Shown piece by piece: positions 3,631-38,105 of a DNA stretch of 64,000 nt (positions within the stretch are counted from its first letter, which is position 1; the number at the start of each line of letters is the position of its first letter). Origin of the DNA: Alcaligenaceae bacterium CGII-47 (GTDB lineage: Bacteria > Pseudomonadota > Gammaproteobacteria > Burkholderiales > Burkholderiaceae_B); NCBI GenBank assembly GCA_019166125.1, contig JAHTBO010000006.1, positions 62,001-126,000 on the forward strand, read 5' to 3'. The notes below the pieces were generated by a model. That model had not been told where the DNA came from. It saw nothing but the letters and a program-made list of their open reading frames with translations, and searched no databases. The translations under genes were made by a program, and so were the position numbers.

Positions 3631-4184
3631 GGTGTCGTCAAGGACCAGGCGGCGCTATTGAGGGCATCGACCTGAAAGGGCCGGGCGAGTCGTGACGTAT
3701 CCAGTCGCATGCGCATGCGCCCCGAGTATTGCGTATCAGCAGCCAGATCGCTGGCTGCTGCGACATCCCAGCCACGTACGTGGCGCACCAGTGCCAGCGC
3801 CTCGTCCAACGTCGAAGCAGGCAAGGATAGCGTACCGGTACCCACGCGCCACTGCCGCGTGAGTGCATTGTATTGGATGCGCCAGGTCAGCTCGGTGCTG
3901 GCGATGGTTTTATCGAACCACCACCAACGGCTGTGCGATATATTGAGGTCGACAGTGAGGTACAGGGGCAGTCCTTTTTGAGCGGCGTCGCGTAACTCTG
4001 GGCTCAGTTCGAACTCGATATCTGCGTCGATGTAGAGCTGGCCGTTATTTAGGACTGGGTCAACTCGCTCGATATAGTCGGCAGCCATGGCGGGCACACC
4101 CTGCATCAGGGTAAACAGGCACAAGGCAATCGAGAGCAGGGTGCGTAGCATGCGCTGCCTATGGTTGCGAACAGAAATGCTCAA
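3582..4184 (-). CDS. DUF4390 domain protein, exported
   Basis: A 200-residue protein of unknown function recognised as the DUF4390 family, which in betaproteobacteria lies between rsmB and the ntrY-like kinase, as here. A signal peptide is visible (MLRTLLSIALCLFTLMQGVPAMAA, within residues 13-35), so the product should be periplasmic. The mature part begins with DYIERVDPVLNNGQLYIDADIEF and is rich in alternating hydrophobic residues and tryptophans, suggesting a beta structure. It sits 18 bases after rsmB and overlaps the kinase start by 49 bases, implying co-transcription and coupled translation. A role with the kinase in sensing the periplasm is only a guess from position. Confidence 0.85.
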   Translation of the reverse strand: MSISVRNHRQRMLRTLLSIALCLFTLMQGVPAMAADYIERVDPVLNNGQLYIDADIEFELSPELRDAAQKGLPLYLTVDLNISHSRWWWFDKTIASTELTWRIQYNALTRQWRVGTGTLSLPASTLDEALALVRHVRGWDVAAASDLAADTQYSGRMRMRLDTSRLARPFQVDALNSAAWSLTTPWKNFTFSISDVDSQP

Positions 4185-4202
4185 TGCCCTATTGTTAATG
4201 AC

Positions 4203-5549
4203 TCACCCCCGCTTGGCAATCAAGGCATAGAAAAACCCATCAGTCTGGTCCGCGGCTGAAGACTCAGCGTGGGGCAAGATATAACCGGGTGCGGCTAGAC
4301 GCAGCGCATCGGCGTGGCGGGCGAGAAAGGCCAGGATCTGTTGCTCACCTTCTATGGGAAAAATCGAGCAGGTGACATAGAGCAGATGGCCGCCTGGGCG
4401 CAGCACGCGCCACAGGGCGTCGATAATGCGTTGCTGCAACGCGGCAGTTCGGGGTAGATCCTCGGCGCGGCGCAGCCAGCGGATATCAGGGTGGCGGCGC
4501 ACGACTCCCGATGCCGTGCAGGGGACATCGGCGAGAATGGCGTCGAAGGGCTCGCCATCCCACCATGATGCGGTATGTGCTGCGTCGCCCGCACACAGGC
4601 GGATGCTGGGGCTGGTTAGGCGCAGCCGATCCAGATTCTGCGCGACACGCTCCAGGCGCTGTGGGTCGCTATCCAGAGCGGTCAATGCCAGGCTATGGCG
4701 TTCGAGTAGATGAGCGGTTTTGCCGCCTGGCGCAGCGCATGCATCCAGCACCCGCATCCCATCGGCCACAGGCAGCAGTCTGCCAGCAAGCTGTGCGGCC
4801 AAATCCTGCACTGACCAACGTCCCTGGGCAAAGCCCGGTATAGCCTGCACGGGCTGCGGCGTACTCAGGATTACGCCATCCTGGCCTGCAAGGGTGGCAT
4901 GAATACCGGCAGCGTCCAGGAAGTTTTGGAGCTGCTCAGGGGTATTCTGACGTCGATTCGCGCGCAGGGTCATCGGTCCCGGTGTATTGGCCGCCTGGAG
5001 TAAAACCTGCCAGTATTGTGGCCATGCTGTCTGTAGCGTGTCGATCCACCACTGGGGGTGGTTCCATTGCGCTACCGGATCCCCCTCCAGTGTGCGTAAT
5101 AAGGGGTCGCGTTCGCGGCCGAATCGGCGCAAAACAGCGTTGATCAGCCCCTTGTAAGCACGGCTCTTGGGATGGTGCATCGCCGCTTCTACGGCTTGGT
5201 TGACGAGCGTGTGGGGTGCGTACACGGGGATGGCGTGTGACGTATCTGCACCATCTTGAGCATGCCCTAGGCTGCTATCCATCAGGCATAGGCTGAGCAA
5301 GAGGAGCGCATCAGTAAGTGGATCCGGTGGTGTGCGCGAGACAAGCATGTCCCGCAGCCCATGTGCCAGGCCCAGATGGCGCATCGCATAAAAAGAGAGC
5401 GCTTGTGCTGCGGCGCGCAGTTCTGTCGGGGTGTGTGCCAGGCTCTCCGAGAGTGATTGGCCAGACAGGACGTCCTGGATATTGTGGGCGGCGGCCAGAA
5501 GTTGTCTAGAGAGGGCGATAGAGGGTGCCTTGGGCGGCATTGGGGCCAC
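4203..5549 (-). CDS. rsmB: 16S rRNA m5C967 methyltransferase RsmB
   Basis: SAM-dependent methyltransferase (448 aa) that methylates C967 of 16S rRNA. The N-terminal third is the NusB-like RNA-binding domain; the C-terminal two thirds is a Rossmann-fold m5C methyltransferase with the SAM motif VLDACAAPGGKTAHLLE near residue 265, the catalytic Cys motif LADVPCTASG (PC) near residue 345 and a second Cys in LYVTCSIFP (TC) near 400. Both cysteines needed by the RsmB/F family are present. The gene follows the BioC-type gene by one base and precedes the DUF4390 gene, the usual betaproteobacterial order. Confidence 0.96.
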   Translation of the reverse strand: MAPMPPKAPSIALSRQLLAAAHNIQDVLSGQSLSESLAHTPTELRAAAQALSFYAMRHLGLAHGLRDMLVSRTPPDPLTDALLLLSLCLMDSSLGHAQDGADTSHAIPVYAPHTLVNQAVEAAMHHPKSRAYKGLINAVLRRFGRERDPLLRTLEGDPVAQWNHPQWWIDTLQTAWPQYWQVLLQAANTPGPMTLRANRRQNTPEQLQNFLDAAGIHATLAGQDGVILSTPQPVQAIPGFAQGRWSVQDLAAQLAGRLLPVADGMRVLDACAAPGGKTAHLLERHSLALTALDSDPQRLERVAQNLDRLRLTSPSIRLCAGDAAHTASWWDGEPFDAILADVPCTASGVVRRHPDIRWLRRAEDLPRTAALQQRIIDALWRVLRPGGHLLYVTCSIFPIEGEQQILAFLARHADALRLAAPGYILPHAESSAADQTDGFFYALIAKRG

Positions 5550-5550
5550 C

Positions 5551-6501
5551 TTATTCCTCTGGGGTGCGTGGACGCACGCGGGGTGGCGGGGCGTTGGGGT
5601 CTAGTGCCTTGCTGCGTTTGAACGTCGTGACGGGCAGATCGCCTAAGGGGCCACGGCGCACGGTTGCGCGCCATGCGTGGCCATAGGCGACTTCAAGGCT
5701 CAAGTGGATCGTACCGTCTGCGTGACGCTGGCGCTCGAGTGCCTGGATCAGCCGTGCACGCCAGGCGCGCCCAGACAGCCCGGCCTTGCGATCACTGCGT
5801 GGGTTGCCACCTAGATCGCGCAGGTCTTCGAGCAATTTTTCGGCAGTTCGGTACGTTAGAGTGATGATCTCCTGATCCATGACCGGGTCGGAAAAGCCAG
5901 TGCGTAGCATCAGGTCGCCGAAGTCGTGCATATCCACGAATTCCATGGTGTTGGTCGTCAGGCCCGCTGCCTCGATGGCGGTGCGCAGTTCCTTGAAGGT
6001 GCCAGGCCCCAGGCTCGAGAACATCACCAATGCATCGGACTTAAGTATGCGCCGCCACTCTGATAGAACCACGTGTGGCTCTGGGTGCCAGTGCAAAGCC
6101 AGATTGGACCAAACCAGATCCATGCTCTGGTCGGGCAGGCTGCTGTCGGCCAGATCCGCCTGAATAAAATGCAGAGCAGGTGTGGGCTTGTTACGCAGCT
6201 TATGCCAAAAACCAGGCTTGGAAACATAACGTGTTTGAGCCACCTTTAGCAATGCATCGCAGGCATCCAGCCCGGTGTAATTAAGCTCTGGGTAGCGAGC
6301 GCGCAGCGGATCAAGCGCATGCCCCGCGCCACATCCCGCATCCAGAATATCCTTGGGTGCAATACGTATGTAGCTTAGGCGCTGGAGCATGCGTTGTGCG
6401 ATTTCTCCGTACAGGAACTGCGCGGCATCCAGCGGACTGCGCCGGGTGAATTGCTGGACGACATGGGCCTGATTGATGGGCAGGCGGGGAAGCTGTGACA
6501 T
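5551..6501 (-). CDS. bioC: BioC-type SAM methyltransferase (malonyl-ACP O-methyltransferase)
   Basis: Class I SAM-dependent methyltransferase of 316 residues resembling BioC, which methylates the free carboxyl of malonyl-ACP so that fatty-acid synthesis can make the pimeloyl moiety of biotin. SAM motif I is ILDAGCGAGHALDPLRARYP near residue 52; the family segment DLVWSNLALHWHPEP lies near residue 128, followed by a Ser-Leu-Gly-Pro-Gly-Thr motif (near 165). The C-terminus is longer and more basic than in E. coli BioC. It is divergent from comF, a pairing seen in other betaproteobacteria and reminiscent of bioH-gntX in gammaproteobacteria. Other bio genes are not in the window, so the exact substrate is inferred. 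Confidence 0.82.
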   Translation of the reverse strand: MSQLPRLPINQAHVVQQFTRRSPLDAAQFLYGEIAQRMLQRLSYIRIAPKDILDAGCGAGHALDPLRARYPELNYTGLDACDALLKVAQTRYVSKPGFWHKLRNKPTPALHFIQADLADSSLPDQSMDLVWSNLALHWHPEPHVVLSEWRRILKSDALVMFSSLGPGTFKELRTAIEAAGLTTNTMEFVDMHDFGDLMLRTGFSDPVMDQEIITLTYRTAEKLLEDLRDLGGNPRSDRKAGLSGRAWRARLIQALERQRHADGTIHLSLEVAYGHAWRATVRRGPLGDLPVTTFKRSKALDPNAPPPRVRPRTPEE

Positions 6502-7876: not shown

Positions 7877-8908
7877 CTACTCTGGCCGGGGGTCGCGCGA
7901 CAGTAGATCAGCGACGGCTTGTCGGGGCGCCAGCCCATCGAACAGCACCTTGCAGACGGCCGCCGTGATTGGCAGGTCGACTTGGTGTTGCTGGCCCAGC
8001 GCCAGGGCGGCGCGGGCGCAGTGGACGCCTTCGGCGGTCATGCCGCCGGCCAGGATATGGGTGAGGGTCTGGCCCTCGCCAATGGCGATGCCGACCTGAC
8101 GATTGCGTGAGAGCCCGCCTGTGGCGGTGAGGACGAGGTCGCCCAGGCCTGCCAGGCCTGAAAAAGTATCTGCCTGGCCACCCAGGGCGACGCCCAGGCG
8201 TTGCATCTCGGCTAGGCCGCGCGTGATGAGTGCGGCCCGGGCGTTTGTGCCCAGGTGCAGGCCATCAGCAATCCCGCAGGCGATTGCTATGACGTTTTTG
8301 AGTGCGCCGCCCACCTCGACACCAATCACGTCATTCGTCGTGTAGATGCGTGCCTGATGGCCGTGGAAAACGGATTGGGTGACGTGTCCTGTGCTGGGCT
8401 GATAGCTGGCCAATGTAAGGGCGACCGGCAGACCCTGGGCGACCTCGTGTGCGAATGACGGCCCTGACAGGACCCCGATGCGCAGCCAGGACGCGTCTGG
8501 CAGGATTTGTTGGATGATCTGGTGGGGCAGGTGCTGCGTAGTCGGCTGGATGCCCTTGCAGGTCCACAGTAGGTGTAGGGGCGTGTGTCGGGTAACAGGC
8601 AGCGCGCCTGCAATGCGCTGGCAGATATCCGCCAGCCCAGCGACAGGCACGCCCAGGATGATGAGCTTGTCTGCTGGTGTGTCGTCCTGCACATGCGCCA
8701 TGGCCTGATCAAAATCAGCCGTCGCCTGCAGACTCGGGGGCAAGGTGATGTCCGAGAGATGACGTGGGTTGAGGTGCTCGTGCGAGATCGCGGCGGCAAC
8801 CTCGGGGCTGCGCGCCCAGATGAGCGTGTTGGCGCGCGCGCAGGCCAAGGCAGCCAGGGCAGTGCCCCAGCTCCCGGCCCCTAGTACACTGACCTGGACG
8901 GGACGCAT
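7877..8908 (-). CDS. gpsA: Glycerol-3-phosphate dehydrogenase [NAD(P)+] GpsA
   Basis: Reduces dihydroxyacetone phosphate to sn-glycerol 3-phosphate, the first step of phospholipid synthesis. The protein has 343 residues; the N-terminal NAD(P)-binding motif GAGSWGTALA is at residues 10-19, and the GPSFAHEVAQG and GGALKNVIAIACGIADGLHLG segments of the family lie near residues 148 and 202 (catalytic Lys in the latter). It is the last gene of the minus-strand group rhodanese-grxC-secB-gpsA, starting 6 bases after secB, an order common in beta- and gammaproteobacteria. Confidence 0.97.
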   Translation of the reverse strand: MRPVQVSVLGAGSWGTALAALACARANTLIWARSPEVAAAISHEHLNPRHLSDITLPPSLQATADFDQAMAHVQDDTPADKLIILGVPVAGLADICQRIAGALPVTRHTPLHLLWTCKGIQPTTQHLPHQIIQQILPDASWLRIGVLSGPSFAHEVAQGLPVALTLASYQPSTGHVTQSVFHGHQARIYTTNDVIGVEVGGALKNVIAIACGIADGLHLGTNARAALITRGLAEMQRLGVALGGQADTFSGLAGLGDLVLTATGGLSRNRQVGIAIGEGQTLTHILAGGMTAEGVHCARAALALGQQHQVDLPITAAVCKVLFDGLAPRQAVADLLSRDPRPE

Positions 8909-8914
8909 CCGGGC

Positions 8915-9415
8915 TTAGCGTGCGCCCGGCGGAATAATCAGGCCGGAGTCTTGCTTTTGCTCTTTGCCGTCAGCTTGCGATGTCCGCTGTTCGTACAGCG
9001 CCTGAAAATTCATTTCAGTCAAATGCAGCGGGGGCAGGGAACTGCGTGTGATCGCGTCAGCGACATTGGCGCGTAAATACGGATACAGCATGGTCGGGCA
9101 GACGATACCCAGCAACGGATCAAGCTGCTCGGCCGGAATATTGGACGCCTCAAAGATCCCGGCTTGGCTGAGCTCGACCAGGTACAGCACTTTGTCGTTG
9201 ATGCGGGTGGTCACGGTGGCAGTCACCACGGACTCAAATACGCTCTCGGCGAGTTGCTGGCCACCAACCTGGATTGAAACCTCGACGCTCGGTGCCTCTT
9301 GGTCAAGAAAAATAGCGGGTGCGTTAGGCATCTCGAGCGACATATCCTTAACATAGGTGCGCTGCAGGCCAAAGCTTGGTTCTTGGGTGTCTGGGGTCTG
9401 GTTTTGTTCGGGCAT
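8915..9415 (-). CDS. secB: Protein-export chaperone SecB
   Basis: Cytosolic tetrameric chaperone that keeps precursors unfolded and delivers them to SecA. At 166 residues it has the typical length; recognisable segments are [16 protein letters not shown] (about residue 21), the [21 protein letters not shown] strand region (near 88) and [19 protein letters not shown] (near 105). The flanking charged tails are variable, as usual. It lies 38 bases after grxC and 6 bases before gpsA, within the classical grxC-secB-gpsA group. Confidence 0.97.
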
Positions 9416-9453
9416 GGGGTCTCCTGGGTAGGGGTGAGGTGGGGCTGGGGGCG

Positions 9454-9711
9454 TCAGGCTTGGAGCAGCGGCGCCAGGCCGCCTGCGCGGTCTAATGCAG
9501 CCAGATCGTCATAGCCGCCAATATGCTGGTCGTCGATGTAGATTTGCGGTACCGTGCGCCGTCCAGTGCGTTCCATCATAATGGAGCGTAGTGCAGGGTC
9601 ACGGTCAATGTGAATCTTGGTGATCTCGGTGACGCCGCGCTGCTTGAGCAGCATTTCGGCGCGCACGCAATAGGGGCATGTTACGGTGCAATACATGGTG
9701 ATGAGTGCCAT
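9454..9711 (-). CDS. grxC: Glutaredoxin 3
   Basis: An 85-residue dithiol glutaredoxin that uses glutathione to reduce protein disulfides. The active site CPYC is at residues 9-12-14 region ([13 protein letters not shown]), with the TVPQIYID cis-Pro motif near residue 53 and the [10 protein letters not shown] glutathione-binding segment near 65. Length and motifs match GrxC of E. coli. It lies between the rhodanese gene (23 bases upstream) and secB. Confidence 0.97.
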
Positions 9712-9734
9712 TGATTCCTCGGGCTAGCTATGGG

Positions 9735-10148
9735 TCAGGATTTGCGCGATAGCGGCATACCAGCCTGGACCCAGCTATCGAGTCCGCCGCTTAGGCAGGA
9801 TACCCGATCAAAGCCGTGTTTGCGCAGGCTGGCGGCAACGCGTTGCGACTCGCGTCCGTGGGCACAGACCAGAATCAGTGGCTTGTCCTTGGGCAGGGTG
9901 CCATGCTGGGCTTCGATATCTGCGGCAGGGAGGTTACGTGATTGGGGGATGTTGCCCGCCTTGAATTGCTCGGTAGCGCGGATATCGACAAAGACACCAT
10001 GCTCTTTGTTGACTTGCCGGATGGCGTCATCCAGTTCAATACGCCCGCCCGGACGGCCTCGTGAGACACTGGGCCATAGCAGCATACCGCCGGCAGCGAC
10101 GGCAATAAGCAGGATCCAGAGGTTGTTCTGGCTAAGTAAAAAGTCCAC
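9735..10148 (-). CDS. Membrane-anchored rhodanese-like protein
   Basis: A 137-residue protein with one N-terminal membrane segment (WILLIAVAAGGMLLWPSV, about residues 9-27) and a single rhodanese domain. The active-site loop carries the persulfide-forming Cys in LILVCAHGRESQRVA (near residue 93), so a sulfurtransferase or thiol carrier role at the inner membrane is possible, with the domain probably cytoplasmic. It heads the group with grxC, secB and gpsA, as in many beta- and gammaproteobacteria (YibN-like). The physiological substrate is unknown. Confidence 0.9.
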   Translation of the reverse strand: MDFLLSQNNLWILLIAVAAGGMLLWPSVSRGRPGGRIELDDAIRQVNKEHGVFVDIRATEQFKAGNIPQSRNLPAADIEAQHGTLPKDKPLILVCAHGRESQRVAASLRKHGFDRVSCLSGGLDSWVQAGMPLSRKS

Positions 10149-10260
10149 GGTATGTCCTGTAGAAGGTTCTAAATAAGGTGTCTAGAAGGCGATTAAAAGA
10201 ATTGTATGTTGGGGGATTATAAAATGGACGGCAGTTTTCAATTTAAGGGCTTGTTTTACC

Positions 10261-11013
10261 ATGCATAAACTCGTATTGATGCGCCACGGCGAGAGTCAGT
10301 GGAATCGGGAAAATCGCTTTACAGGCTGGACAGACGTGGATCTGACCGAGACTGGGCGCGAGCAGGCGCGCCAGGCGGGCCTACTTCTTAAGGAAAATGG
10401 CTTTGAGTTCGATCTGGCGTTTACGTCGGTCCTCAAGCGTGCAATCCGCACGCTATGGATCGCACTGGATGCGATGGATGCCATGCATACGCCGATAGGT
10501 CTGAATTGGCGCTTGAACGAGCGCCACTATGGTGCGCTCCAGGGGCTGGATAAGGCCGAGACGGCAGCACGCTATGGCGAGGAACAGGTTTTGCTATGGC
10601 GCCGTGCCTATGCCATCGCGCCCGAACCACTCAGTCTGGATGATCCGCGGCACCCTCGTTTTGATCGTCGTTATCGCAACATCCCTGTAGAGCAGTTACC
10701 CGCGAGCGAGTGCCTGCAGGATACGGTGGCGCGCGTTGTTCCTTTCTGGAATGACTCGGTGGCGACTGCACTGCGCTCGGGGCGGCGTGTGATCATCTCT
10801 GCGCACGGCAATAGCCTGCGTGCACTGATTAAGCACCTGGATGGGGTGTCAGACGAGGACATCGTCAAGGTCAACGTTCCGACCGGCCAGCCGCTGGTGT
10901 ATGAACTGGATGATGATCTGCGTCCCTTGCGAAATTATTACCTCGGGGATCGTGCACAGATCCAGGCTGCCATGCAGGCTGTGGCCGACCAAGGCAAGGC
11001 ACGCAAGGACTGA
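10261..11013 (+). CDS. gpmA: 2,3-bisphosphoglycerate-dependent phosphoglycerate mutase
   Basis: Interconverts 3- and 2-phosphoglycerate in glycolysis and gluconeogenesis through a phosphohistidine intermediate. The RHGES motif near residue 8 carries the catalytic His; the GWTDVDLTE segment, the [13 protein letters not shown] segment (near residue 86) and the second catalytic His in [11 protein letters not shown] (near 180) are all present. 250 residues is the family length. It is divergent from the rhodanese gene across 112 bases that should hold both promoters. The envC-type gene begins 2 bases after its stop. Confidence 0.97.
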
Positions 11014-11014
11014 T

Positions 11015-12349
11015 ATGACGCCTCGGTGTCTGGGTCTGGGGCTGATTTTGTGCGTTGTCTTCGGCCTTGCTCAGGGCGCGCCTTCGTTGGAGGCGCGCCA
11101 GTCCGAGGCGCGTGAACAGCGCAGCGCCTTGCGCACTCAAATCGGCGAACTACAGAGCCGAATTGAGGACACAGAGTCTTCGCGTCATGACGCGAGCGTC
11201 AAGCTACGTGCCTCTGAACAGGCAATCTCGGATATCAGTCGCCGGCTCGATGAGTTAAGCCGGCAGCGCAAGGCGTTGCAGACATCGCTAAGTGAGCTGG
11301 AGGGTGCCATTAAGGACCATAGCCAGCAGATGCGGCGCCAACAAGACGCCCTGGCCCAGCAGCTACGCGCTCAGTATGCCAGTGGCTTATCGCCCTGGAC
11401 TGCATTGCTCTCGGGCGAGGACCCGCAAAGCATTGGCCGGGAATTGGCGTACCTGTCTTATATCTCGCGTGCGCGCACAGAGGCATTGCAGGCCTTGCGT
11501 GTGACGATCGATAAGCTCTCGGCCTTACAAGAGCGGGTAAGCGCCCAGCGCACAGAGCTGGAGGGCGTGCAGGCAGAAGTGCTAGCGCAAAAAAAAGATC
11601 TGGAGATTCAGCAGGATAAGCGTCGCAAGGTCCTCGATACCATCAAGGTCCAGTTGCAGGCACAGCGTGGTCAGGCTCAGCAGCTAGAGACGCGTGAACA
11701 ACGTTTGGGTAATTTGATCGATGGCTTGGCTGTCGAGATCGCTCGGGCGCAGGCGCGGGCTCGTGCCGAGGCCGAACGCCGTGCCAAGGCTGAAGCGAAA
11801 GCGCGCGCAGCGGCTAAGGCGCGCGAGGATCAGGAAGTGGCCGCGGCGCGTGCGGCCGCGGCACAGGTGGCTGCTGCCCGTAGTGCTGAAGAGGATCAGA
11901 TGTCTGGTGCGTCGCCTTCCTCAGCGCGGGTCGCTGACGAGGAGCCTGCCGGCGGGTTCAAGGGCTTGAAAAAGGGTCTGCCTCACCCCGTGGCAGGAGA
12001 GATGCTGGGCCGTTTCGGGGCTGAACGTCCGGATGGGAGTGGCCTGTGGCGAGGAATTGTGCTGCGCGCTGCACCGGGTGCACCCGTCCATGCGGTGGCG
12101 CCAGGCCGGGTGGTTTATGCGAGCTGGTTAAGTGGTTTCGGTAATATTCTGATTATTGATCATGGCGAGAAATATTTGAGCGTTTATGCGTATAACCAGA
12201 GCCTGTTACGCCAAGTGGGTGATATTGTGGCGCGTGGTGACGAGGTGGCTCGTGTGGGTGCGACGGGCGGGCAGGTCGAGCCGGGCTTGTATTTCGAGAT
12301 TCGTCATGCGGGCGCACCAGTCAATCCACAGCTATGGTTGAAGCCGTAA
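11015..12349 (+). CDS. envC: EnvC-type activator of murein amidases (degenerate LytM/M23 domain)
   Basis: Periplasmic coiled-coil protein of 444 residues. The ATG at 11015, directly after the gpmA stop, gives a good signal peptide (LGLGLILCVVFGLAQGAPS). Residues 25-240 are long heptad-rich coiled coil, 240-300 an Ala/Arg/Glu-rich helix, and the C-terminus (about 325-444) a LytM/M23 fold with VVYASWLSGFGNILIIDHG and GLYFEIRHAGAPVNPQLWL. The HxxxD and HxH zinc ligands of active M23 peptidases are replaced (LYFEIR where HLHFE would be), exactly as in E. coli EnvC, so it should activate amidases at the septum rather than cut peptidoglycan itself. The gpm-envC-ctp order is conserved in proteobacteria. 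Confidence 0.93.
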   Translation: MTPRCLGLGLILCVVFGLAQGAPSLEARQSEAREQRSALRTQIGELQSRIEDTESSRHDASVKLRASEQAISDISRRLDELSRQRKALQTSLSELEGAIKDHSQQMRRQQDALAQQLRAQYASGLSPWTALLSGEDPQSIGRELAYLSYISRARTEALQALRVTIDKLSALQERVSAQRTELEGVQAEVLAQKKDLEIQQDKRRKVLDTIKVQLQAQRGQAQQLETREQRLGNLIDGLAVEIARAQARARAEAERRAKAEAKARAAAKAREDQEVAAARAAAAQVAAARSAEEDQMSGASPSSARVADEEPAGGFKGLKKGLPHPVAGEMLGRFGAERPDGSGLWRGIVLRAAPGAPVHAVAPGRVVYASWLSGFGNILIIDHGEKYLSVYAYNQSLLRQVGDIVARGDEVARVGATGGQVEPGLYFEIRHAGAPVNPQLWLKP

Positions 12350-12416
12350 TTTCGTTACTATCTACTCTTCGTTTGACCGTTTTTCGGTGACTTTTAAAAA
12401 TATTTCAGGAATGTGC

Positions 12417-13946
12417 ATGAGCACTCGCAGATTTAGGGCTTTTGGTTGGATCCTTATTGGGTTTGCAGGCGGCATTCTGATTAGCCTGGGTATCAGTGCG
12501 ACCGCTCAGCGCAGCGAACCGCTGCCATTGAAGGACTTGCAGCAATTTGCCAATGTATATGGCGCGATTAAAAGCAGCTATGTCGAGCCGGTCTCCGATA
12601 AGGTGTTGATCAATGATGCGATCAAGGGTTTATTCAGCGACCTGGACCCGCACTCCGCCTACCTGGACGAGGAAGCCTACAAGCAGATGCAGGACATCAC
12701 GCGTGGCGGTTTCGGGGGCTTGGGGATCGAGATCGGTACCCAGGATGGCATGCCTAAGGTCATTGCGCCGATCGAGGATACGCCAGCAGCGCGTGCCGGC
12801 ATTTTGACGGGTGACCTCATTACTCATATTAATGACAAGCCGACCAAGGGCATGACCCTGAACGATGCGGTCAAAAAGATGCGTGGTGAGCCAAATACAT
12901 CTATTGATCTGACCATACAGCGCACGGGTAGCCCCAAACCCCTTAAATTTCATATCGTACGCGAGATGATCAAGACCCGCAGTGTGCGAGGGAAAATGCT
13001 TGACGATCAGATTGTCTATGTCCGCGTCAGCCAGTTTCAGGATCGTACGACCGGCGATCTGGTACGCATGCTCGATAGTCTGGCTGGCAAGACCACGCCC
13101 AAGGCCTTGATCCTTGACTTGCGCAATGATCCGGGCGGCCTGCTCGATGGCGCAATTGGCGTGTCTTCGATTTTCCTGGAGCCCGGTAAGCTGGTCGTCT
13201 CAACGAAGGGCCGTATTCCGTCTTCGAATGAGGAGTTCTACGCACGCCGCGTCGCGTCTCACTATACGTCACCGGCAAATGATGTGGCACCGCCACCGGC
13301 CTGGACGCAGACCGTGCCGATGGTGGTGCTGGTGAATGTGGGCTCGGCCTCGGCCTCCGAGATCGTGGCTGGTGCATTGCAGGATCACAAACGTGCGCAA
13401 ATCGTCGGTAATCGTACCTTCGGCAAGGGCTCGGTACAGTCTGTGTTGCAACTAAGCGCTGACACGGGCATCAAGATCACCACTGCGCGTTACTACACAC
13501 CGAGCGGGGCTTCGATTCAGGTGACAGGTGTGCTGCCCGATTACTTGGTTGATGATAGTGCGGCGGGAAACTTGTTTCACCTGCAGCGCGAGGTTGATCT
13601 GGATCACCATCTGGATAACAAGGCACAGGCTGAGCTGGCAGCACAGGCTGAGGCTGAGGATGATTTCGTCCAAGGCGAGATCAAGATGTTCGAGATGGGG
13701 GGTAGTGATGATTGGCAATTGCGTCAGGCAATCAATCTGCTCCAGGGGCGTGCTGTGCAGAAGTCTGATCCGGTGCTGGTGGCTCAGTCCAAGGCGGCTG
13801 CTGGGGCCGATTTAAAAATAGGCCCGACGGCTGTGGCGGAACCAGGCAGCACACCGGCTGAGGCTGAAAAAAAAACACTAAGTAATCCGGAATTGCAGAT
13901 TGAACGTTACCGCGTCACGCCAAATGGTCTGATTAAGGTGCCGTGA
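12417..13946 (+). CDS. ctpA: C-terminal processing peptidase, S41 family, with PDZ domain
   Basis: Periplasmic serine protease of 509 residues. The ATG at 12417 is chosen because AGGA lies six bases upstream; a GTG 30 bases earlier and an ATG at 12411 are less likely. An uncleaved or cleaved signal segment (WILIGFAGGILISLGISATA) is followed by the CtpA N-terminal region, a PDZ domain (about 90-170, FGGLGIEIGTQDGMPKVI) and the S41 catalytic core with Ser in NVGSASASEIVAGAL (near 310) and Lys in GNRTFGKGSVQ (near 335). The C-terminal tail is longer than the minimal family. The stop overlaps the next start by one base. Confidence 0.95.
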   Translation: MSTRRFRAFGWILIGFAGGILISLGISATAQRSEPLPLKDLQQFANVYGAIKSSYVEPVSDKVLINDAIKGLFSDLDPHSAYLDEEAYKQMQDITRGGFGGLGIEIGTQDGMPKVIAPIEDTPAARAGILTGDLITHINDKPTKGMTLNDAVKKMRGEPNTSIDLTIQRTGSPKPLKFHIVREMIKTRSVRGKMLDDQIVYVRVSQFQDRTTGDLVRMLDSLAGKTTPKALILDLRNDPGGLLDGAIGVSSIFLEPGKLVVSTKGRIPSSNEEFYARRVASHYTSPANDVAPPPAWTQTVPMVVLVNVGSASASEIVAGALQDHKRAQIVGNRTFGKGSVQSVLQLSADTGIKITTARYYTPSGASIQVTGVLPDYLVDDSAAGNLFHLQREVDLDHHLDNKAQAELAAQAEAEDDFVQGEIKMFEMGGSDDWQLRQAINLLQGRAVQKSDPVLVAQSKAAAGADLKIGPTAVAEPGSTPAEAEKKTLSNPELQIERYRVTPNGLIKVP

Positions 13947-31840: not shown

Positions 31841-32362
31841 TTAGCCCAGCGTCGGAAAGGCATAAAGCAAAAAAGAGGTCATCAGGGCATAGCGGATGAA
31901 TTTGCCAATCGCCATATAAGCCACGCTGGGCCAGAAGGCCAAACGTAGCCAGCCTGCAACAGCACACAGCGGATCACCGATCACGGGTAACCAGGATAGT
32001 AGCAAGGCGGGTGGTCCAAGTCGGTGAATCCAGCGCGTTGTGGAGGCGTGCCAGCGGCCGCCTGCTTTTTTTCCAGATTTACCGGGGTGTTCCAGGCGCC
32101 ATTTTTCGTAGGCGCGTTCGGCACCGCGTCCCATGGCATAGCTGATGGTGCCGCCGATCGTATTGCCGAGGGTGGCGACCAGGACGGCAGGCCAAAACAT
32201 CTCGGGTGCGAGCTTGACGTAGCCAAAAACAGCGGGCTCAGAGCCCAGCGGCAGGAGGGTTGCCGAGACAAGGCTAATGATAAAGATGGCGCTTAGGCCG
32301 ACACGTGGCAGGGCCAAGGTCAGCAGCAGTGCATGTATAGTGGTTTGTAGCCAGGCTTCCAT
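31841..32362 (-). CDS. YqaA-family membrane protein (VTT/DedA-like)
   Basis: A 173-residue inner-membrane protein of the YqaA branch of the VTT (SNARE-associated/DedA-like) superfamily. Hydrophobic segments lie near residues 20-42, 48-70, 120-140 and 150-170; the family segments LGSEPAVFGYVKL and LGNTIGGTISYAMGRGA (near 37-80) and the amphipathic SWLPVIGDPLCAVAGWLRL region (near 122) are visible. DedA-type proteins move or flip lipids; the role of YqaA is unproven. It starts 44 bases after the GGDEF-EAL gene on the same strand and may be read through from it. Confidence 0.85.
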   Translation of the reverse strand: MEAWLQTTIHALLLTLALPRVGLSAIFIISLVSATLLPLGSEPAVFGYVKLAPEMFWPAVLVATLGNTIGGTISYAMGRGAERAYEKWRLEHPGKSGKKAGGRWHASTTRWIHRLGPPALLLSWLPVIGDPLCAVAGWLRLAFWPSVAYMAIGKFIRYALMTSFLLYAFPTLG

Positions 32363-32406
32363 GAGAGACCGGTTATGCGGTGATAGGTCACCCTATTGTG
32401 TCCATT

Positions 32407-34041
32407 CTACTGGAGTCTGGTGTCGCGAGTTTCCGACGGGTTTTCTGCCGTAGTGTGCAGTCTAGTGCGCAGCAATGCTGAGAATTCATCCGCAACCAAT
32501 GGCTTACTCAGATAATTTCCCTGTCCTTCAAGGCATAGATGATCGACTAAAAATTTTAGTTGTTCCGGCGTTTCTATGCCTTCTGCAATCACGCGATGGC
32601 CCAGACTGTGGCCGAGGCCGACGACTGAATTAATCAAAATATTGTCGTCAGCGCCATCGGCCAGGATGCCTGCGACAAATGATTGGTCGATCTTCAAGGT
32701 ATCAACCGGGAAACGCTGTAAATAACTGAGGCTGGAGTAGCCAGTACCAAAATCATCAATTGCAATTTTGATGCCCATTCGTTTGAGTTCCTGCAGTACG
32801 TTCATGGTGGCTTGGGCGTTCTTCATCAGTACTGACTCAGTGACCTCGAACGCTAAATGCTGTGGCTCCAATCCGGTATCCAGCAGAATGGCACGAACAT
32901 TTTCCATGAAATTAGACCGCATAAACTCGATCGCGGAAATATTCACGGCGATGACGGGTACCGCCAAGCCGGCGTTTAGCCAGGTGATGGTTTGTTGACA
33001 CGCCTGGCGCAACACCCAGCGCCCGATCGGCACGATTGCACCGCAGTCCTCGGCGATCGAGATAAACGCATCGGGCAGCAAGAACCCAAGCTCTGGGTGG
33101 TGCCAGCGGATCAATGCCTCTACGCCGACGATACGGCCAGTCAGCAACTCGACTTGGGCTTGGTAATGCAACTCGAATTCCTGGTGTGCCAGCGCGCGGT
33201 ATAACTCTGCTTCTATCCGCTGTCGCTCTATCGCACGCAAGGTCATTTCGGGTTCAAAAAACGAGTAATTGGAGCCGGTGGTTTTCTTGCCGTGGTACAT
33301 CGCGACATCGGCATTGCGGATGAGTGCTTCAGCATCGATACCGTCCTCTGGGTACATGCTGATACCGATCGTGGCGCCGATGCGAAGTTCCTGACCAGCC
33401 AGCAGGTAGTTGGCGCTGACTGTCTTGCATATTTTGTCGGCCAGCAACGCGACGGCGTTTTCATCGGCGACTTCGGGTAGCAGTGCCACGAACTCGTCGC
33501 CGCCCTGGCGGCTGATTGTGTCGCTCTCGCGGACGGATCCTAGCAGGCGTTGCGCGACGGACTGCAGTAATGCGTCACCGGTCGCGTGTCCCAATGAATC
33601 GTTGATGATTTTAAAGCGATCGAGGTCAATGAATAGCACCGCCAGCCGGGTGTTGTGACGCTTGGCGTGTGCAATCGCCTGCGTTAGGCGTTCTTCGAGG
33701 AGTTTTCGATTTGGTAGGCCAGTCAAAAAGTCATGATGGGCCATATGGCTCATCTGGTCACGGACTTCCTTTACCTGGTCAGCCATGGTCTGGGTATTGA
33801 GCGTGGCAATTACCAGATTTTCATTTGCCTGGCGTAACTTGCTAATATGGGATTCGAGCGACGCCTGCATCTTTTGGGTGGCAAGAATGATGTCCTCACG
33901 CGAGGCGATGTCGTTCTCGCGCAACTGTAGTAGTTGCTCTCGCATCTTCACAAGATTATCACGCAGATCGGCCTCGTGCTCGCGCTGCGCGGCGCCTCGC
34001 AGATCGTTGTCCTTGGCGCCTGGTCGGCTATGGCTCGGCAT
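32407..34041 (-). CDS. GGDEF-EAL protein (c-di-GMP synthase/phosphodiesterase), KaiC cassette
   Basis: Cytoplasmic protein of 544 residues without membrane segments. Residues 1-95 are predicted coiled coil (charged, heptad-like). The GGDEF domain (about 100-265) has an intact active site RQGGDEF and an RESD inhibitory site five residues before it. The EAL domain (about 275-530) keeps the catalytic set: GVEALIRWHHP, NISAIEFMR, FEVTESVLM, IDDFGTGYSSLSYLQRFPVD, LKIDQSF and EGIETPEQL. Both activities are therefore possible. The start overlaps the KaiC-like stop by one base (TAATG), so translation is coupled. Inference: the ATPase senses or times something and passes it to c-di-GMP through this protein. 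Confidence 0.93.
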   Translation of the reverse strand: MPSHSRPGAKDNDLRGAAQREHEADLRDNLVKMREQLLQLRENDIASREDIILATQKMQASLESHISKLRQANENLVIATLNTQTMADQVKEVRDQMSHMAHHDFLTGLPNRKLLEERLTQAIAHAKRHNTRLAVLFIDLDRFKIINDSLGHATGDALLQSVAQRLLGSVRESDTISRQGGDEFVALLPEVADENAVALLADKICKTVSANYLLAGQELRIGATIGISMYPEDGIDAEALIRNADVAMYHGKKTTGSNYSFFEPEMTLRAIERQRIEAELYRALAHQEFELHYQAQVELLTGRIVGVEALIRWHHPELGFLLPDAFISIAEDCGAIVPIGRWVLRQACQQTITWLNAGLAVPVIAVNISAIEFMRSNFMENVRAILLDTGLEPQHLAFEVTESVLMKNAQATMNVLQELKRMGIKIAIDDFGTGYSSLSYLQRFPVDTLKIDQSFVAGILADGADDNILINSVVGLGHSLGHRVIAEGIETPEQLKFLVDHLCLEGQGNYLSKPLVADEFSALLRTRLHTTAENPSETRDTRLQ

Positions 34042-35468
34042 TATCTCAGCCCGTCAAGTTGCGTCAATACTTCACCGATCTTGAAACTATCATGTCCGAT
34101 TTCGTAGGACCGGATTTCTTTGCTATGCTGACTGCTGCGGATCTTTACCACTGAAATTACGCGCTGAAAGCAACCTTTTATGATGACGTAGCGTTGCATG
34201 ATGATGGCGTCCACCAAAAACGCACTGCCGTACGAGCTAAAGCGCAAATCAGTATACCGGTCTTCCAGCTCGGCTGTCATTAGCACCGTCACGCCCATTG
34301 AGGTCAGGATCGCCACCATCCGATACAGCGCGTCGCGAAAGTTTTCCCGGAAAGCGGGCGCCAATGCCAGCTCGAAGCCGGATAGAGAGTCGATCACTAC
34401 CCGTTTTGCCTGCCTCTGGTTGATGGCCTGGATCAGGTTGTGCACGGTTTCGTCTATCGACATATCCAGGCTTCGGGTGTTGATCAGCCCGATTTCGCCA
34501 GCCTTGATCATTTTGTTAAGTTTGTGGCTTAGCAACTGGTTTGGACTCTTTTCAAACGCTGCAATCACGCCCGGCTCACCAACCCGCACGCCCTCTGCTA
34601 GAAACTCGGTGGCGAGAACGGTCTTGCCCGACCCGGACGGGCCAACCACCAGCATTGAATACGCAATCGGTAGGCCGCCGCCCAGCATTCGGTCCAACTC
34701 GGGAATGCCCATCGACAGGCGTCGGTCACCAGCGGGGATGACTTGGTCGGTGCTGCGGTGGGGCCGGATCGTGCGCGGAAATATTTCAACGCCATCGTCG
34801 GTGATGCGAAACGTATGCAAACCAGCGTGTGTTGCCTGCCCACGCATTTTCACCACCTGAATTTTGCGCACCATCGAGTCGCGATACATTGATTGCGAGA
34901 GCCATAGAATGCCGTCGGCAACGGTGCAAATCGGACTGGATTCCGTGTCTGGGCTTGGGTATCCGCCGATCAGGAAGGTTGTTGCCTGCCAACTGGCCAT
35001 CCGTACGCCTAGGCGCTGGATAAAGTGTTGTAGGTGCAGGTCTTCGTTCTGGGCGCCGCTGCCTGAGCGCACCACCGAGCGAAATGAATCAACGAAAACC
35101 AGACTAGGGGAAAAACCCTCGACTTCCTTTGTGATGCGCGCCAGAATCAGGTCAAAATTACCTGCCAATAAATCCGCAGATAAATTGACGAACCGAATGG
35201 AGTTATTGATTTTTCTAAAATCAAAAAAGGAAAATTGCTGTTGATAACGCAGCATTTTCAGGGGTGGTTCACCCAGTACTGTGAAAAATAGCGCGCGGCG
35301 CTCTGGATTTGCCAGCGAAAACATGATTGCATGCGCCAGCGTGGTCTTACCACTGCCGGGCGCCCCGGCCACCAGGTTAAAGGAAAACTCTGGCAGACCG
35401 CCACCGAGCAATGCATCCAATCCGGGTACCCCGGTGTGCAGCCGTCGTATGGTTACTTTGCGTGTCAT
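34041..35468 (-). CDS. Two-domain KaiC-like RecA-type ATPase
   Basis: A 475-residue homologue of the cyanobacterial clock ATPase KaiC, with two tandem RecA/KaiC domains. Domain 1 has Walker A GAPGSGKT at residues 35-42 and Walker B LVFVDSF; domain 2 has GPSGSGKT near residue 270 and Walker B RVVIDSLSGFE near 355. Compared from memory with Synechococcus KaiC, the catalytic Glu pair is GE in domain 1 and EK in domain 2, and the Ser431/Thr432 phosphorylation pair aligns with Ala-Phe (GSAFLVDAI). ATP binding is likely; clock-type autophosphorylation is doubtful. No kaiA or kaiB is nearby. The ATG at 35468 is used (a TTG six bases earlier is rejected); it lies 2 bases after the 138-residue ORF. 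Confidence 0.9.
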   Translation of the reverse strand: MTRKVTIRRLHTGVPGLDALLGGGLPEFSFNLVAGAPGSGKTTLAHAIMFSLANPERRALFFTVLGEPPLKMLRYQQQFSFFDFRKINNSIRFVNLSADLLAGNFDLILARITKEVEGFSPSLVFVDSFRSVVRSGSGAQNEDLHLQHFIQRLGVRMASWQATTFLIGGYPSPDTESSPICTVADGILWLSQSMYRDSMVRKIQVVKMRGQATHAGLHTFRITDDGVEIFPRTIRPHRSTDQVIPAGDRRLSMGIPELDRMLGGGLPIAYSMLVVGPSGSGKTVLATEFLAEGVRVGEPGVIAAFEKSPNQLLSHKLNKMIKAGEIGLINTRSLDMSIDETVHNLIQAINQRQAKRVVIDSLSGFELALAPAFRENFRDALYRMVAILTSMGVTVLMTAELEDRYTDLRFSSYGSAFLVDAIIMQRYVIIKGCFQRVISVVKIRSSQHSKEIRSYEIGHDSFKIGEVLTQLDGLR

Positions 35469-35470
35469 GT

Positions 35471-35887
35471 TCAAGTTTCCTGTTTACTGTCCAGAGCAGT
35501 GTCGTTCCAGACCGAGCTGATGATGGCGTCGGTCATCGCCTCGCCGATGAGTGTTGCGAGTATGCTGAGGAATGTGGTTAGCAGGCAGATACTCGCCTCA
35601 CTGGCCTCAGCGGCACTTTGTTGTTCCAAATGCGTTGATAAATGGATAAACAAGAGATCGGCGGTTGGTGGCGGTTGCTCGTTCGGTAGCCATGGAAAAT
35701 CGTTGCGGGTCAGGTGAATGGTTCTGGCGTAGAGCGAGTTAAAGCCACCGCTACCAATAATCGGAACCAACTCAAGTGCCAGCTGCCCCCACAGTTTGAC
35801 CGTGATTGTCAACATCGCTTCGGGTTGCTTTGTCAGCGTCGTTCTAATTTTTGTGTGCCACTGGGGGCCGGGCGCAGTCATGATCAA
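35471..35887 (-). CDS. Uncharacterised 138-aa protein, first gene of KaiC cassette
   Basis: I do not recognise this family. The protein has 138 residues, no signal peptide and no cysteine-rich motif. Residues 20-60 and 85-125 look helical and amphipathic; the middle has aromatic and Pro-rich NDFPWLPNEQPPP (around 73-85). The last third reads LLTTFLSILATLIGEAMTDAI, hydrophobic but with polar faces, more like a helical bundle than a membrane span. Its stop is 2 bases before the KaiC-like start, so it is very probably a real, co-translated partner. It is not KaiB-like (no KaiB-type YVAG motif or thioredoxin pattern). A sensor or regulator of the ATPase is a guess from position. Confidence 0.75.
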   Translation of the reverse strand: MIMTAPGPQWHTKIRTTLTKQPEAMLTITVKLWGQLALELVPIIGSGGFNSLYARTIHLTRNDFPWLPNEQPPPTADLLFIHLSTHLEQQSAAEASEASICLLTTFLSILATLIGEAMTDAIISSVWNDTALDSKQET

Positions 35888-36148
35888 GACTTAAGGGGAA
35901 CGCATCGTGACAGCTGGGTTTTCTCGTTACTGACCAACGTAATCATATGGCAGTCCCCTATAGCCAGAAACTCAAAGAATAGAGCCCCAAGCGAATGATG
36001 CTGCTACACCGGGCAGGATGGAAACAGCTCAGGCTTGCTGACACGCTCAGAGAGCAGGATGAAGCATGCATGCTCAGTATAAGATGTTGCTTGCGTGCTG
36101 GGCGATTGACATTACTGCCAAAAGGGTTAAATGGGATTTAAGGGATAC
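35888..36148. other. 261-base intergenic stretch upstream of KaiC cassette, possible mobile remnant
   Basis: No intact gene is visible. It should contain the promoter of the cassette (read leftward). On the plus strand a short frame starts at 35947 (MAVPYSQKLKE) and stops at 35980, after which the same frame continues with KRMMLLHRAGW. This loosely resembles the beginning of a transposase orfA, so it could be a decayed insertion-sequence end; no terminal inverted repeats or target duplication could be identified. The evidence is weak. Confidence 0.3.
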
Positions 36149-36532
36149 TCAACTCTTTCCTCGTACCAGATCGATTAGCCGTCGATCTCGCTTGGTTGGG
36201 CGCCCCACGATGTCATGAGACGGTTCGGGTGCGAGGCGGCGCATCTCTGCCGCATGTTCACGTGCCGCGATGCTCTCGGGGGTTTCCTCATAAAGTAGGC
36301 GCGCAACCGGCGCGGGGCCACGCACATTGCTGACCGCGCGTACGCGGACGTGAATGGCCGGGTCTTCCTTACGTATACTGATGAGGTCGTCGAGCGCGAT
36401 CTCACGCGCAGGCTTGACGGGTTGGCCATTGACGAGCACTCGTCCTTTGCCGATCTCCTGCACCGCCAGGCTGCGGGTTTTATAAAAACGAGCGGCCCAG
36501 AGCCATTTGTCCAGCCGGATCTTATCTGCCAT
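36149..36532 (-). CDS. hslR: Heat-shock protein 15-like S4 RNA-binding protein
   Basis: S4-domain RNA-binding protein (127 aa) of the Hsp15 family, which in E. coli recycles 50S subunits carrying a nascent chain. The S4 domain occupies residues 4-65 (IRLDKWLWAARFYKTRSLAV ... VLVNGQPVKPAREIALDD), followed by a basic tail. Divergent from ilvA across 64 bases. Confidence 0.93.
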   Translation of the reverse strand: MADKIRLDKWLWAARFYKTRSLAVQEIGKGRVLVNGQPVKPAREIALDDLISIRKEDPAIHVRVRAVSNVRGPAPVARLLYEETPESIAAREHAAEMRRLAPEPSHDIVGRPTKRDRRLIDLVRGKS

Positions 36533-36596
36533 GCGAACCTCTCCTGTGCTGTGATATTCTTTTCAGTTTGTTGCCATCACTATTTTCGGACCTTTA

Positions 36597-38105
36597 ATGT
36601 CTATCGACTATCTCAAGCGCATCCTGACGTCCAAGGTTTATGACGTCGCTCACGAAACATCTCTTGATATTGCGCCCCGAATTTCAGCACGAATTGGCAA
36701 TACTGTCCTGCTTAAGCGCGAAGACACCCAGCCCGTGTTCAGCTTCAAGTTGCGCGGCGCCTATAACAAGATGGCGCACCTGACTGCGGCAGAGCTCAAG
36801 CGTGGCGTGATCGCTGCCTCCGCAGGTAACCATGCCCAGGGCGTGGCGCTGTCTGCCCAGCGACTGGGCTGCCGAGCGGTCATCGTCATGCCAGTGACGA
36901 CGCCTGACGTCAAAATCGATGCCGTGCGCGCGTTGGGTGCTGAAGTCGTGCTGTTTGGCGATAGTTTTACGGATGCCGCCGAGCACGCGGCAGAGCTACA
37001 AGATCGTGACAAACTCACCTTTGTCCACCCCTTTGATGACCCCGAAGTGATTGCCGGGCAGGGAACAGTGGGGATGGAGATTCTGCGCCAGCATCCCGGG
37101 CCGATCGACGCGATTTTTGTGGCAATCGGCGGGGGGGGCTTGATCTCGGGGATTGCAGCCTACGTTAAGCAATTGCGCCCGGAAATCAAGATCATTGGTG
37201 TGCAGACAGAGGATTCGGACGCGATGATTCGCAGCGTCAAGGCGGGGCGTCGCCTCAAATTGACGGATGTGGGTCTGTTCTCGGACGGTACGGCGGTCAA
37301 GCAGGTGGGTGTCGAGACCTTCAGGCTGGTACGCGAGTATGTCGATGACTTTGTTCAGGTGGATACGGATGCGATCTGCGCCGGGATTAAAGATGTTTTT
37401 CAGGATACGCGCAGCGTGCTCGAGCCTGCGGGGGCGCTCGCCCTGGCGGGTGCCAAGCGCTATGTCGCACTGAATAAGTGGAAGAACAAAACCATCGTCG
37501 TCGTGACGTGTGGCGCAAATATGAATTTCGATCGACTGCGGTTTGTCGCGGAACGCGCGGATGTGGGCGAGGCGCGTGAGGCCTTGTTGGCGATTACGCT
37601 GCCCGAGAAGCGCGGCAGTTTTATGCGCTTGTGCGAGGCGGTGGGCAATCGCGCCGTGACCGAGTTCAATTATCGGATATCAGACGCAGAGACCGCGCAT
37701 GTTTATGTGGGCTTGCAGATTCACTCCGAACCAGAGATTGAAAAGCTCATCGCGCATTTCCGCAAAAAGGACTTCCCTACGCTCGACCTCACGAGCAACG
37801 AGATGGCTAAAACGCACCTGCGTTATATGGTGGGGGGGCGCTCTGCGCTGGCCGAGCACGAAGTCTTGTACCGATTTGAGTTTCCCGAGCGACCAGGTGC
37901 ACTGATGAAGTTTCTTGGCGCCATGAACCCGAACTGGAACATCAGCTTGTTTCATTATCGAAACCAGGGCGATGATTATGCGCGAGTACTGGTGGGCCTG
38001 CAGGTGCCACCGGTCGATAAAAAGGCGTTTAAGGAATTCCTGGCGGCTTTGGGCTACCCATACTGGAATGAGACCGAAAACCCGGCATTCCGCTTGTTTC
38101 TATAA
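36597..38105 (+). CDS. ilvA: Threonine ammonia-lyase, biosynthetic
   Basis: PLP enzyme converting threonine to 2-oxobutanoate, the first step of isoleucine synthesis. 502 residues: the catalytic domain has the PLP-lysine in FSFKLRGAYNKM (near residue 51), SAGNHAQGVALSA (near 75) and the GGGGLISGIA phosphate-binding loop (near 180). The C-terminus (about 330-502) contains two ACT-like regulatory subdomains for isoleucine/valine control, so this is the long allosteric form. The first ATG is used, which gives the usual N-terminus. Confidence 0.96.
   Translation: MSIDYLKRILTSKVYDVAHETSLDIAPRISARIGNTVLLKREDTQPVFSFKLRGAYNKMAHLTAAELKRGVIAASAGNHAQGVALSAQRLGCRAVIVMPVTTPDVKIDAVRALGAEVVLFGDSFTDAAEHAAELQDRDKLTFVHPFDDPEVIAGQGTVGMEILRQHPGPIDAIFVAIGGGGLISGIAAYVKQLRPEIKIIGVQTEDSDAMIRSVKAGRRLKLTDVGLFSDGTAVKQVGVETFRLVREYVDDFVQVDTDAICAGIKDVFQDTRSVLEPAGALALAGAKRYVALNKWKNKTIVVVTCGANMNFDRLRFVAERADVGEAREALLAITLPEKRGSFMRLCEAVGNRAVTEFNYRISDAETAHVYVGLQIHSEPEIEKLIAHFRKKDFPTLDLTSNEMAKTHLRYMVGGRSALAEHEVLYRFEFPERPGALMKFLGAMNPNWNISLFHYRNQGDDYARVLVGLQVPPVDKKAFKEFLAALGYPYWNETENPAFRLFL

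Follow-up and report, generated by a model that had tools for sequence, protein, structure and literature searches.

A KaiC-like ATPase with a constant small partner gene, a system-specific coil and exchangeable outputs: a candidate KaiB-independent signalling hub

What does a KaiC-like ATPase do when its gene is placed between a gene for a small protein of no recognised family and a gene for an enzyme of cyclic di-GMP (c-di-GMP) turnover? The question is raised by a locus of Alcaligenaceae bacterium CGII-47, a Burkholderiales genome (G000) of 3.45 Mb that is 99.99% complete. The stretch analysed, hereafter the window, comprises 64,000 nucleotides of contig JAHTBO010000006.1 (positions 62,001 to 126,000). 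A check of open reading frames (ORFs) showed the small gene, the KaiC-like double ATPase gene and the GGDEF-EAL gene following one another on the minus strand. The answer that we favour, with confidence slightly above the midpoint, is that the locus encodes a KaiB-independent KaiC signalling hub, in which a helical partner would set the state of the ATPase and a system-specific coil would link it to an output that can be exchanged and that at this locus is c-di-GMP turnover. Its elements in the window are as follows.

35471 to 35881, minus strand: small all-helical partner protein; ORF, 136 amino acids (aa) from ATG 35881 or 138 aa from TTG 35887 (ORF 35471-35887)
34041 to 35468, minus strand: KaiC-like double RecA-type ATPase; 475 aa, PF06745 at E 1.4e-65 in two stretches
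35340 to 35366, minus strand: Walker A of the first ATPase domain (GAPGSGKTT); G, P, G, G, K, T and T constant in 109/109 rows of the KaiC alignment
34617 to 34643, minus strand: Walker A of the second ATPase domain (GPSGSGKTV); G, P, G, G and K constant in 109/109 rows
32407 to 34041, minus strand: GGDEF-EAL output protein; 544 aa, PF00990 at E 3e-48 and PF00563 at E 1.4e-70
33730 to 33903, minus strand: system-specific coil of the output (LRQANENLVIATLNTQTMADQV...), from alignment A5; sole profile match in the host genome, E 8.8e-24
33277 to 33741, minus strand: GGDEF domain with RQGGDEF and the upstream RxxD, from Pfam and sequence
32500 to 33210, minus strand: EAL domain with the motifs EAL, DDFGTGYSS and KID, from Pfam and sequence

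The ORFs bore out the layout that an earlier note on this DNA had described. A gap of 2 bp separates the TGA of the small gene from the ATG of the KaiC-like gene at 35468, and the KaiC stop and the GGDEF-EAL start share one base in the junction TAATG. An alternative KaiC-like start, TTG 35474, would overlap the small gene. The note had also called the first product a 138-residue protein without a recognised family. The second half of this description held in Pfam and NCBIfam; the length probably needs correction to 136 aa, because a relative at locus L016 also reads M-T-... at ATG 35881, which makes this start the likelier one. The active sites of the GGDEF-EAL protein were found intact, as had been claimed, with the GGDEF motif, the RxxD I-site and the EAL motifs all legible in the sequence.

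The middle protein belongs to the KaiC superfamily (PF06745), having two ATPase domains with Walker A and Walker B motifs and, in its predicted model, the double-domain fold. By sequence it matched a KaiC chain in the PDB at E 2.1e-52, and the model (predicted local distance difference test [pLDDT], 76.7) matched KaiC 8zn5 with a Z of 32.6 over 433 residues at a root mean square deviation (rmsd) of 4.8. Conservation was read from an alignment of 109 rows, 81 from a set of named loci and 28 from a first set, in which some genes stand twice (for example, L016 is L075). The Walker A core and the Walker B aspartates are unchanged in all rows, and the same is true of K207 and R209, which follow the first domain, and of K442, R444 and H448, which follow the second. 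The paired catalytic glutamates are kept in part: the second domain has the first of them (E in 108/109 rows), followed by K in 96, and the first domain has only the second (G-E in 109/109). Positions are compared below with S431, T432 and T426, which we take to be site numbers of cyanobacterial KaiC. At the positions aligned by eye with S431 and T432, the window protein carries A and F, and these residues recur in 103 and 104 of the 109 rows, respectively; the position aligned with T426 is S in 107. Judged from these residues, the retained ATPase motifs make ATP use likely, and the loss of the S431/T432 pair makes a clock phosphorylation cycle unlikely, while some phosphorylation may take place at the kept T426-aligned serine. 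The C-terminal tail of cyanobacterial KaiC binds KaiA. The end of the KaiC-like protein aligns at about residue 494 of the 519-residue cyanobacterial chain, and its relatives are some 10 to 25 residues longer.

Is the small gene a chance neighbour of this ATPase? A KaiC search over 398 Burkholderiales genomes yielded two separate classes, with 25 places scoring above 480 bits and 21 below 200 bits. The small gene lay directly upstream on the same strand in 25/25 of the close class and in 0/21 of the distant one, which identifies its product as a real, nearly constant partner of this KaiC subfamily. This search is a fairer test than the named loci, since those are the 80 top-ranking loci among at least 505 KaiC relatives and were found with KaiC proteins adjoining the small gene. 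Among them, 80 of 81 KaiC genes are preceded by the small gene, a few of these copies being truncated or split, and the remaining KaiC gene (L123) follows a remnant in which one frame still matches the C-terminal portion of the small protein (E 6e-20). The two genes commonly interlock, the KaiC start codon standing 1 to 16 bases, mostly 8 or 4, inside the small gene in 78 of 81 scored pairs (the start nearest -4 was taken, the split gene of L125 was counted twice and L123 was not scored). Viewed from the small gene, 25 of its 29 places in Burkholderiales adjoin a close KaiC gene. At three of 31 loci (L057, L058 and L068) it was first masked by the overlapping KaiC reading frame and is present there; one of eight loci in a later set (L165) has no recognisable small ORF. 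Broken or split small genes stand upstream of KaiC at L065 (5183-8110), L118 (5599-5829), L125 (5596-6008) and L123 (5500-6010); they might be sequencing errors or real decay.

The distribution counts that follow are lower bounds, with at most 10 candidates scored per genome in the wide profile draws and 4 in the KaiC search. The small-family profile matched in at least 26 of 399 Burkholderiales genomes, the host included, and in at least 17 of 158 genera. Wider draws, both including the host, gave at least 8 of 369 genomes of the class and at least 4 of 398 of the phylum, and in the phylum draw no genome with the small family was found outside the host's class. By their taxonomic labels, 61 of the 80 named loci are betaproteobacterial and 11 gammaproteobacterial, with 28 named genera. 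The order of small gene, KaiC and GGDEF-EAL recurs in loci labelled as Beta- and Gammaproteobacteria, so the trio occurs together beyond close relatives. Spread to Alphaproteobacteria or Myxococcota is not claimed; the labels Rhizobium (L135) and Myxococcales (L137) belong to metagenome-assembled genomes and may be binning errors. Two Caballeronia plasmids (L009 and L010) carry the small gene, KaiC and a GGDEF gene together with a convergent gene for a coil-bearing kinase, and the module can therefore lie on plasmids. On the Polaromonas plasmid pH6NP1 (L008, 6953-7381), the small gene has no KaiC match within the 14 kb around it.

The small protein itself resembles nothing that we could name. 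Its family was followed with the profiles A1, A3 and A4, the A1-stage profile being built from eight small proteins; a single-sequence scan of genome contigs with the small protein gave no relatives. An AlphaFold model based on 79 sequences is entirely helical, with five helices, a pLDDT of 82 and a predicted template modelling score of 0.76. G43, R53 and G113 are invariant in the 79 sequences, and W31 and W64 are nearly so. Searches of Pfam and NCBIfam returned nothing above the cut-off. TonB_2, which appeared below threshold (E 0.1), was dismissed as noise because it matches one of 79 members; every Pfam family matches three members at most. No match was obtained to PDB sequences (best E, 0.53), nor did Foldseek return anything for the model at E 0.001. 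A second fold comparison reached a top Z of 5.0, a score that is uninterpretable for a helical protein; the KaiA helical domain was not among the matches listed there, which excludes nothing. A match of the model to 2bnl, which we take to be the N-terminal part of RsbR with a non-haem globin fold, had a Z of 3.6 and an rmsd of 3.5 over 83 residues and falls within the noise of helical proteins. A suspected internal repeat was not supported (hhalign probability, 18).

These data bear on the view that the three genes are mere co-transcribed neighbours, the small ORF serving as a translational leader and each protein acting alone. The frameshifted, truncated or split copies at L065, L118, L123 and L125 would suit such a leader. 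It fits poorly with a pairing confined to one KaiC subfamily, with conservation at the protein level of the three invariant residues and the two tryptophans, with a fairly confident helical model and with an output coil that was detected nowhere else in 26 genomes, as described below. We regard the leader explanation as very improbable.

If the small gene and KaiC form the constant part, what do they act upon? The third gene varies and encodes a GGDEF-EAL protein, a GGDEF protein, a histidine kinase or a kinase-receiver protein. Outputs were scored for 97 KaiC genes (81 of the named loci, the window and 15 other loci) within the same gene run, defined as the same strand with gaps of no more than 250 bases. 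The run contained a kinase in 46 cases, a GGDEF or GGDEF-EAL gene in 22, both in 16 and neither in 11; the GGDEF outputs of L009, L010, L018 and L057-L059 also matched the kinase query. On a quick tree of these KaiC genes, in which 34 of 94 inner branches are weak, at least 11 changes of output type were counted across 68 tips, with the 29 tips that have both outputs or none left uncounted. The tree covers neither L016, L049-L056, L061, L065, L068 and L162-L169, some of which are copies of named loci and the rest unchosen, nor L008, L017 and L062, which offered no usable KaiC gene. In many Oxalobacteraceae and Polaromonas loci, the kinase gene stands upstream of the small gene instead; a motif pattern caught 24 of 31 such upstream kinases, and the remaining 7 show a motif variant by eye. 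Locus L053 (6063-12165) holds a tandem copy of the operon in which similar N-termini are borne by a kinase-receiver protein in one copy and by a frameshift-split GGDEF-EAL protein in the other, which is a direct hint of output exchange. The sequence of the second copy reads as if a deletion reaching from the small gene into the KaiC tail had removed KaiC. The constant parts of the system are thus the small gene, KaiC and the output coil, and the output enzyme is exchangeable. The proposal in the earlier note that the ATPase controls c-di-GMP suits the GGDEF-EAL output of the window; as a description of the ATPase it is too narrow, a kinase alone being the commoner neighbour (46 of 97; 22 have GGDEF alone, and 16 have both kinds).

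The outputs share a segment at their N-termini. In the 80 loci, 60 ORFs match the N-terminal segment of the window's GGDEF-EAL protein, comprising 35 GGDEF-EAL, 17 kinase-receiver and 8 kinase proteins. The consensus of the coil, LQQANxxLVxATxxAxxLxEQV, is the same in kinase and GGDEF-EAL outputs. Among the coil-bearing GGDEF-EAL outputs, GGDEF and the RxxD I-site are kept in 35/35 and all three strict EAL patterns in 30/35. When 26 whole genomes were searched with the coil profile, 16 matches were obtained, all of them no more than 3485 bp from a small gene. Of the 14 genomes with the small gene, 13 contained the coil; none of the 12 others did. As all 16 matches lie near the small gene, the coil is a mark of this system and no general linker, within the reach of the profile.

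Helical linkers in front of GGDEF domains and kinases shift dimers between states. We hypothesize that the system would work in a similar manner. The KaiC-like protein would form an ATP-driven double ring. The helical partner, made just before KaiC, would bind it and set its state in response to a signal, either by loading the ring or by sensing. The output enzyme would be a dimer, and the ring would then grip its N-terminal coil and shift the register of that coil. For the bifunctional GGDEF-EAL output of the window, the effect would be a shift in the ratio of c-di-GMP synthesis to breakdown, and with it a change in the c-di-GMP level of the cell. In relatives, the same coil plug would act on the histidine kinase or kinase-receiver protein that carries it.

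Several observations weigh against this model. In the first ATPase domain, the first catalytic position is G instead of E in all 109 rows, and ATPase activity there may therefore differ. Four of the 29 Burkholderiales places of the small gene have no adjoining KaiC: G115, where the contig ends, G468, a second copy in G462 and a fragment in G246. No KaiC match was found in G468 or G115 at E 1e-10, and G468 retains a coil-bearing kinase all the same. A recognised output is missing from the gene run of 13 of the 97 KaiC genes, two of them at contig ends, and 5 of the 35 GGDEF-EAL outputs miss at least one of the three EAL motif words under the strict patterns. G069, a relative from the host's family that has the small gene-KaiC pair, gave no coil match anywhere in its genome. 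Proteins at these loci were the source of the coil profile, which could therefore overlook a more diverged coil elsewhere. Finally, in one genome of the host's class the small helical domain is naturally fused to a GGDEF domain (L166, 6546-7640; 364 aa), which in itself speaks for the model. The fusion has, however, no match to the coil profile and no KaiC beside it, and the KaiC matches of that genome are distant only (110 and 61 bits). We read it as a sign that the small domain can govern a signalling enzyme alone and that the coil goes with KaiC; the coil-bearing kinase of G468 speaks against the latter.

The fusion and G468 would also suit a small protein that acts on the output, binding or capping the enzyme with the coil in the manner of a sensor, with KaiC as an ATP-driven remodeller or second input. 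What makes this unlikely in our judgement is that the small gene abuts KaiC and not the output in 80 of 81 cases at the named loci (a kinase gene also abuts upstream in part of them) and stays with KaiC where no output adjoins. Moreover, the second copy of L053 looks like a deletion remnant, and G468 may reflect loss of KaiC. The model in which the partner acts on KaiC is therefore kept here as the preferred one.

Could the locus instead be a rudimentary clock of the KaiBC kind, or an hourglass, that times c-di-GMP or kinase output? The likeness to the KaiABC and KaiBC clocks (cyanobacterial KaiC and KaiC-RS) lies in the double-domain KaiC fold of the model, with Z from 32.6 to 26.0, and a timing role would agree with the serine aligned with T426 in 107 of 109 rows. 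In two distant genomes, a kaiC-kaiB cluster with a sensor/kinase gene stands just upstream of the small gene-KaiC operon (L162 in G558, 8338-12543, and L018 in G094, 2130-6394). For Ramlibacter, a KaiC-kinase operon has been proposed as an hourglass in the part of PMC3164672 that we draw on; the same text holds that KaiC unable to phosphorylate two residues would probably fail to sustain a cycle. The system differs from these clocks in its helical partner gene, in the coil on its outputs and in the replacement of S431/T432 by A and F, so that a phosphorylatable pair is missing. KaiB, the other component expected of a KaiBC or KaiABC clock, was not found either: the host genome gave no PF07689 match, in agreement with the earlier note, while the control S. 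elongatus did. Nor was KaiB found in 22 of 26 genomes that carry the small gene-KaiC pair, two of the other four being G558 and G094; two KaiB queries also gave no hit in the flanking regions of the 80 named loci. Taken together, a clock or hourglass appears quite improbable to us, and the KaiB-independent hub is retained.

Placement of KaiC beside kinase or GGDEF/EAL genes is not new. It was published in 2011 with the genome of Ramlibacter tataouinensis (PMC3164672), where, in the portions consulted, kaiC contexts were sorted and such neighbours noted. The third ('black') group of that work has kaiC near receiver, kinase or GGDEF/EAL genes, keeps one or no phosphorylation site and includes 'AF' among its profiles. 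The locus in the window likewise has a signalling gene nearby and at most one site of the phosphorylation pair as that group is described there. The passages compared name neither a small upstream gene nor a coil; the figures, with some 'HP' genes, lie outside this comparison. KaiC-like ATPases have been proposed as hubs in archaea (Makarova 2017, as related in part of PMC5847659), and those proteins differ from the present ones in being archaeal. SasA of cyanobacteria is likewise a KaiC-coupled histidine kinase output; it binds KaiC by a thioredoxin domain, according to the title of 6x61, whereas the candidate here is the coil. In the literature on KaiC with signalling outputs, as covered by text and few subscription papers and without figures, we found neither the small family nor the coil described, and the passages seen of PMC5520375, PMC8899612, PMC7439463, PMC5847659 and PMC6848086 contain neither. 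A related arrangement is the kai operon of Legionella, which has KaiC beside a PAS-GGDEF-EAL gene and, as a difference, also kaiB.

How did the trio come to stand where it does? It is bordered by an S4-domain (hslR-like) gene and ilvA on one side and by a VTT-domain gene and an FAD-linked oxidase gene on the other.

36149 to 36532, minus strand: flanking S4-domain (hslR-like) gene, from Pfam; apart from the VTT gene in 7 congeners where hslR was found
31841 to 32362, minus strand: flanking VTT-domain gene, from Pfam; borders a variable spot next to ilvA in G003, G005 and G007

The spot between ilvA and the VTT gene (window 31841-38105) holds different genes, and neither the small gene nor KaiC, in these three congeners. 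With labels read from sequence, it contains one transporter-like gene in about 850 bp in G007; a regulator, an isochorismatase-like gene and a toxin-antitoxin-like pair in G005; and a membrane GGDEF gene in G003. In the seven congeners with hslR, this gene and the VTT gene lie on separate contigs or, in G002, 1.75 Mb apart. A single-sequence search did not find the small gene in nine congeners, two of which are less than 90% complete. The guanine-plus-cytosine (GC) content of the trio is 53-54%, compared with 59.1 +/- 2.3% for 29 other ORFs, and its third-position GC (62.0-62.6%) falls within their range, near the lower limit. The suggestion of the earlier note that the cassette was acquired is thus strengthened in part: insertion at a variable chromosomal spot is likely, given the gene content of the spot in congeners, the separation of hslR from the VTT gene and the somewhat low GC of the trio, although the third-position difference is small.

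A variable spot might also house an anti-phage or other conflict cassette built around a KaiC-like ATPase. PADLOC gave weak matches of the ATPase (mad8 over 72 residues at E 3.6e-12, and five others over about 20 to 46 residues) and none for the small protein or the GGDEF-EAL protein. With outputs that are signalling enzymes with intact motifs, we give this idea hardly any credence.

Beyond the locus in the window, we tentatively propose, with somewhat less confidence than the midpoint, that the small proteins are KaiC regulators of a new class, which take the place of KaiA and KaiB, and that the coil of the above consensus is a dedicated KaiC plug. Jointly, they would give proteobacteria a non-oscillating plug-and-play KaiC hub for driving outputs of the second-messenger or phosphorelay type. 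The role of KaiC proteins without KaiA and KaiB is largely open. One large subfamily of them now has a partner and a docking candidate that are both constant, and its function can therefore be tested with defined proteins. The loci also provide a set of naturally exchanged outputs that share a single coil. The system may be a route by which the ATP state of the cell, or another signal, reaches c-di-GMP and phosphorelays. The findings suggest that a clock-protein signalling hub works in many proteobacteria without the classical clock partners. If this is true, KaiC would be a general signalling ring, of which the circadian clock is one specialised use.

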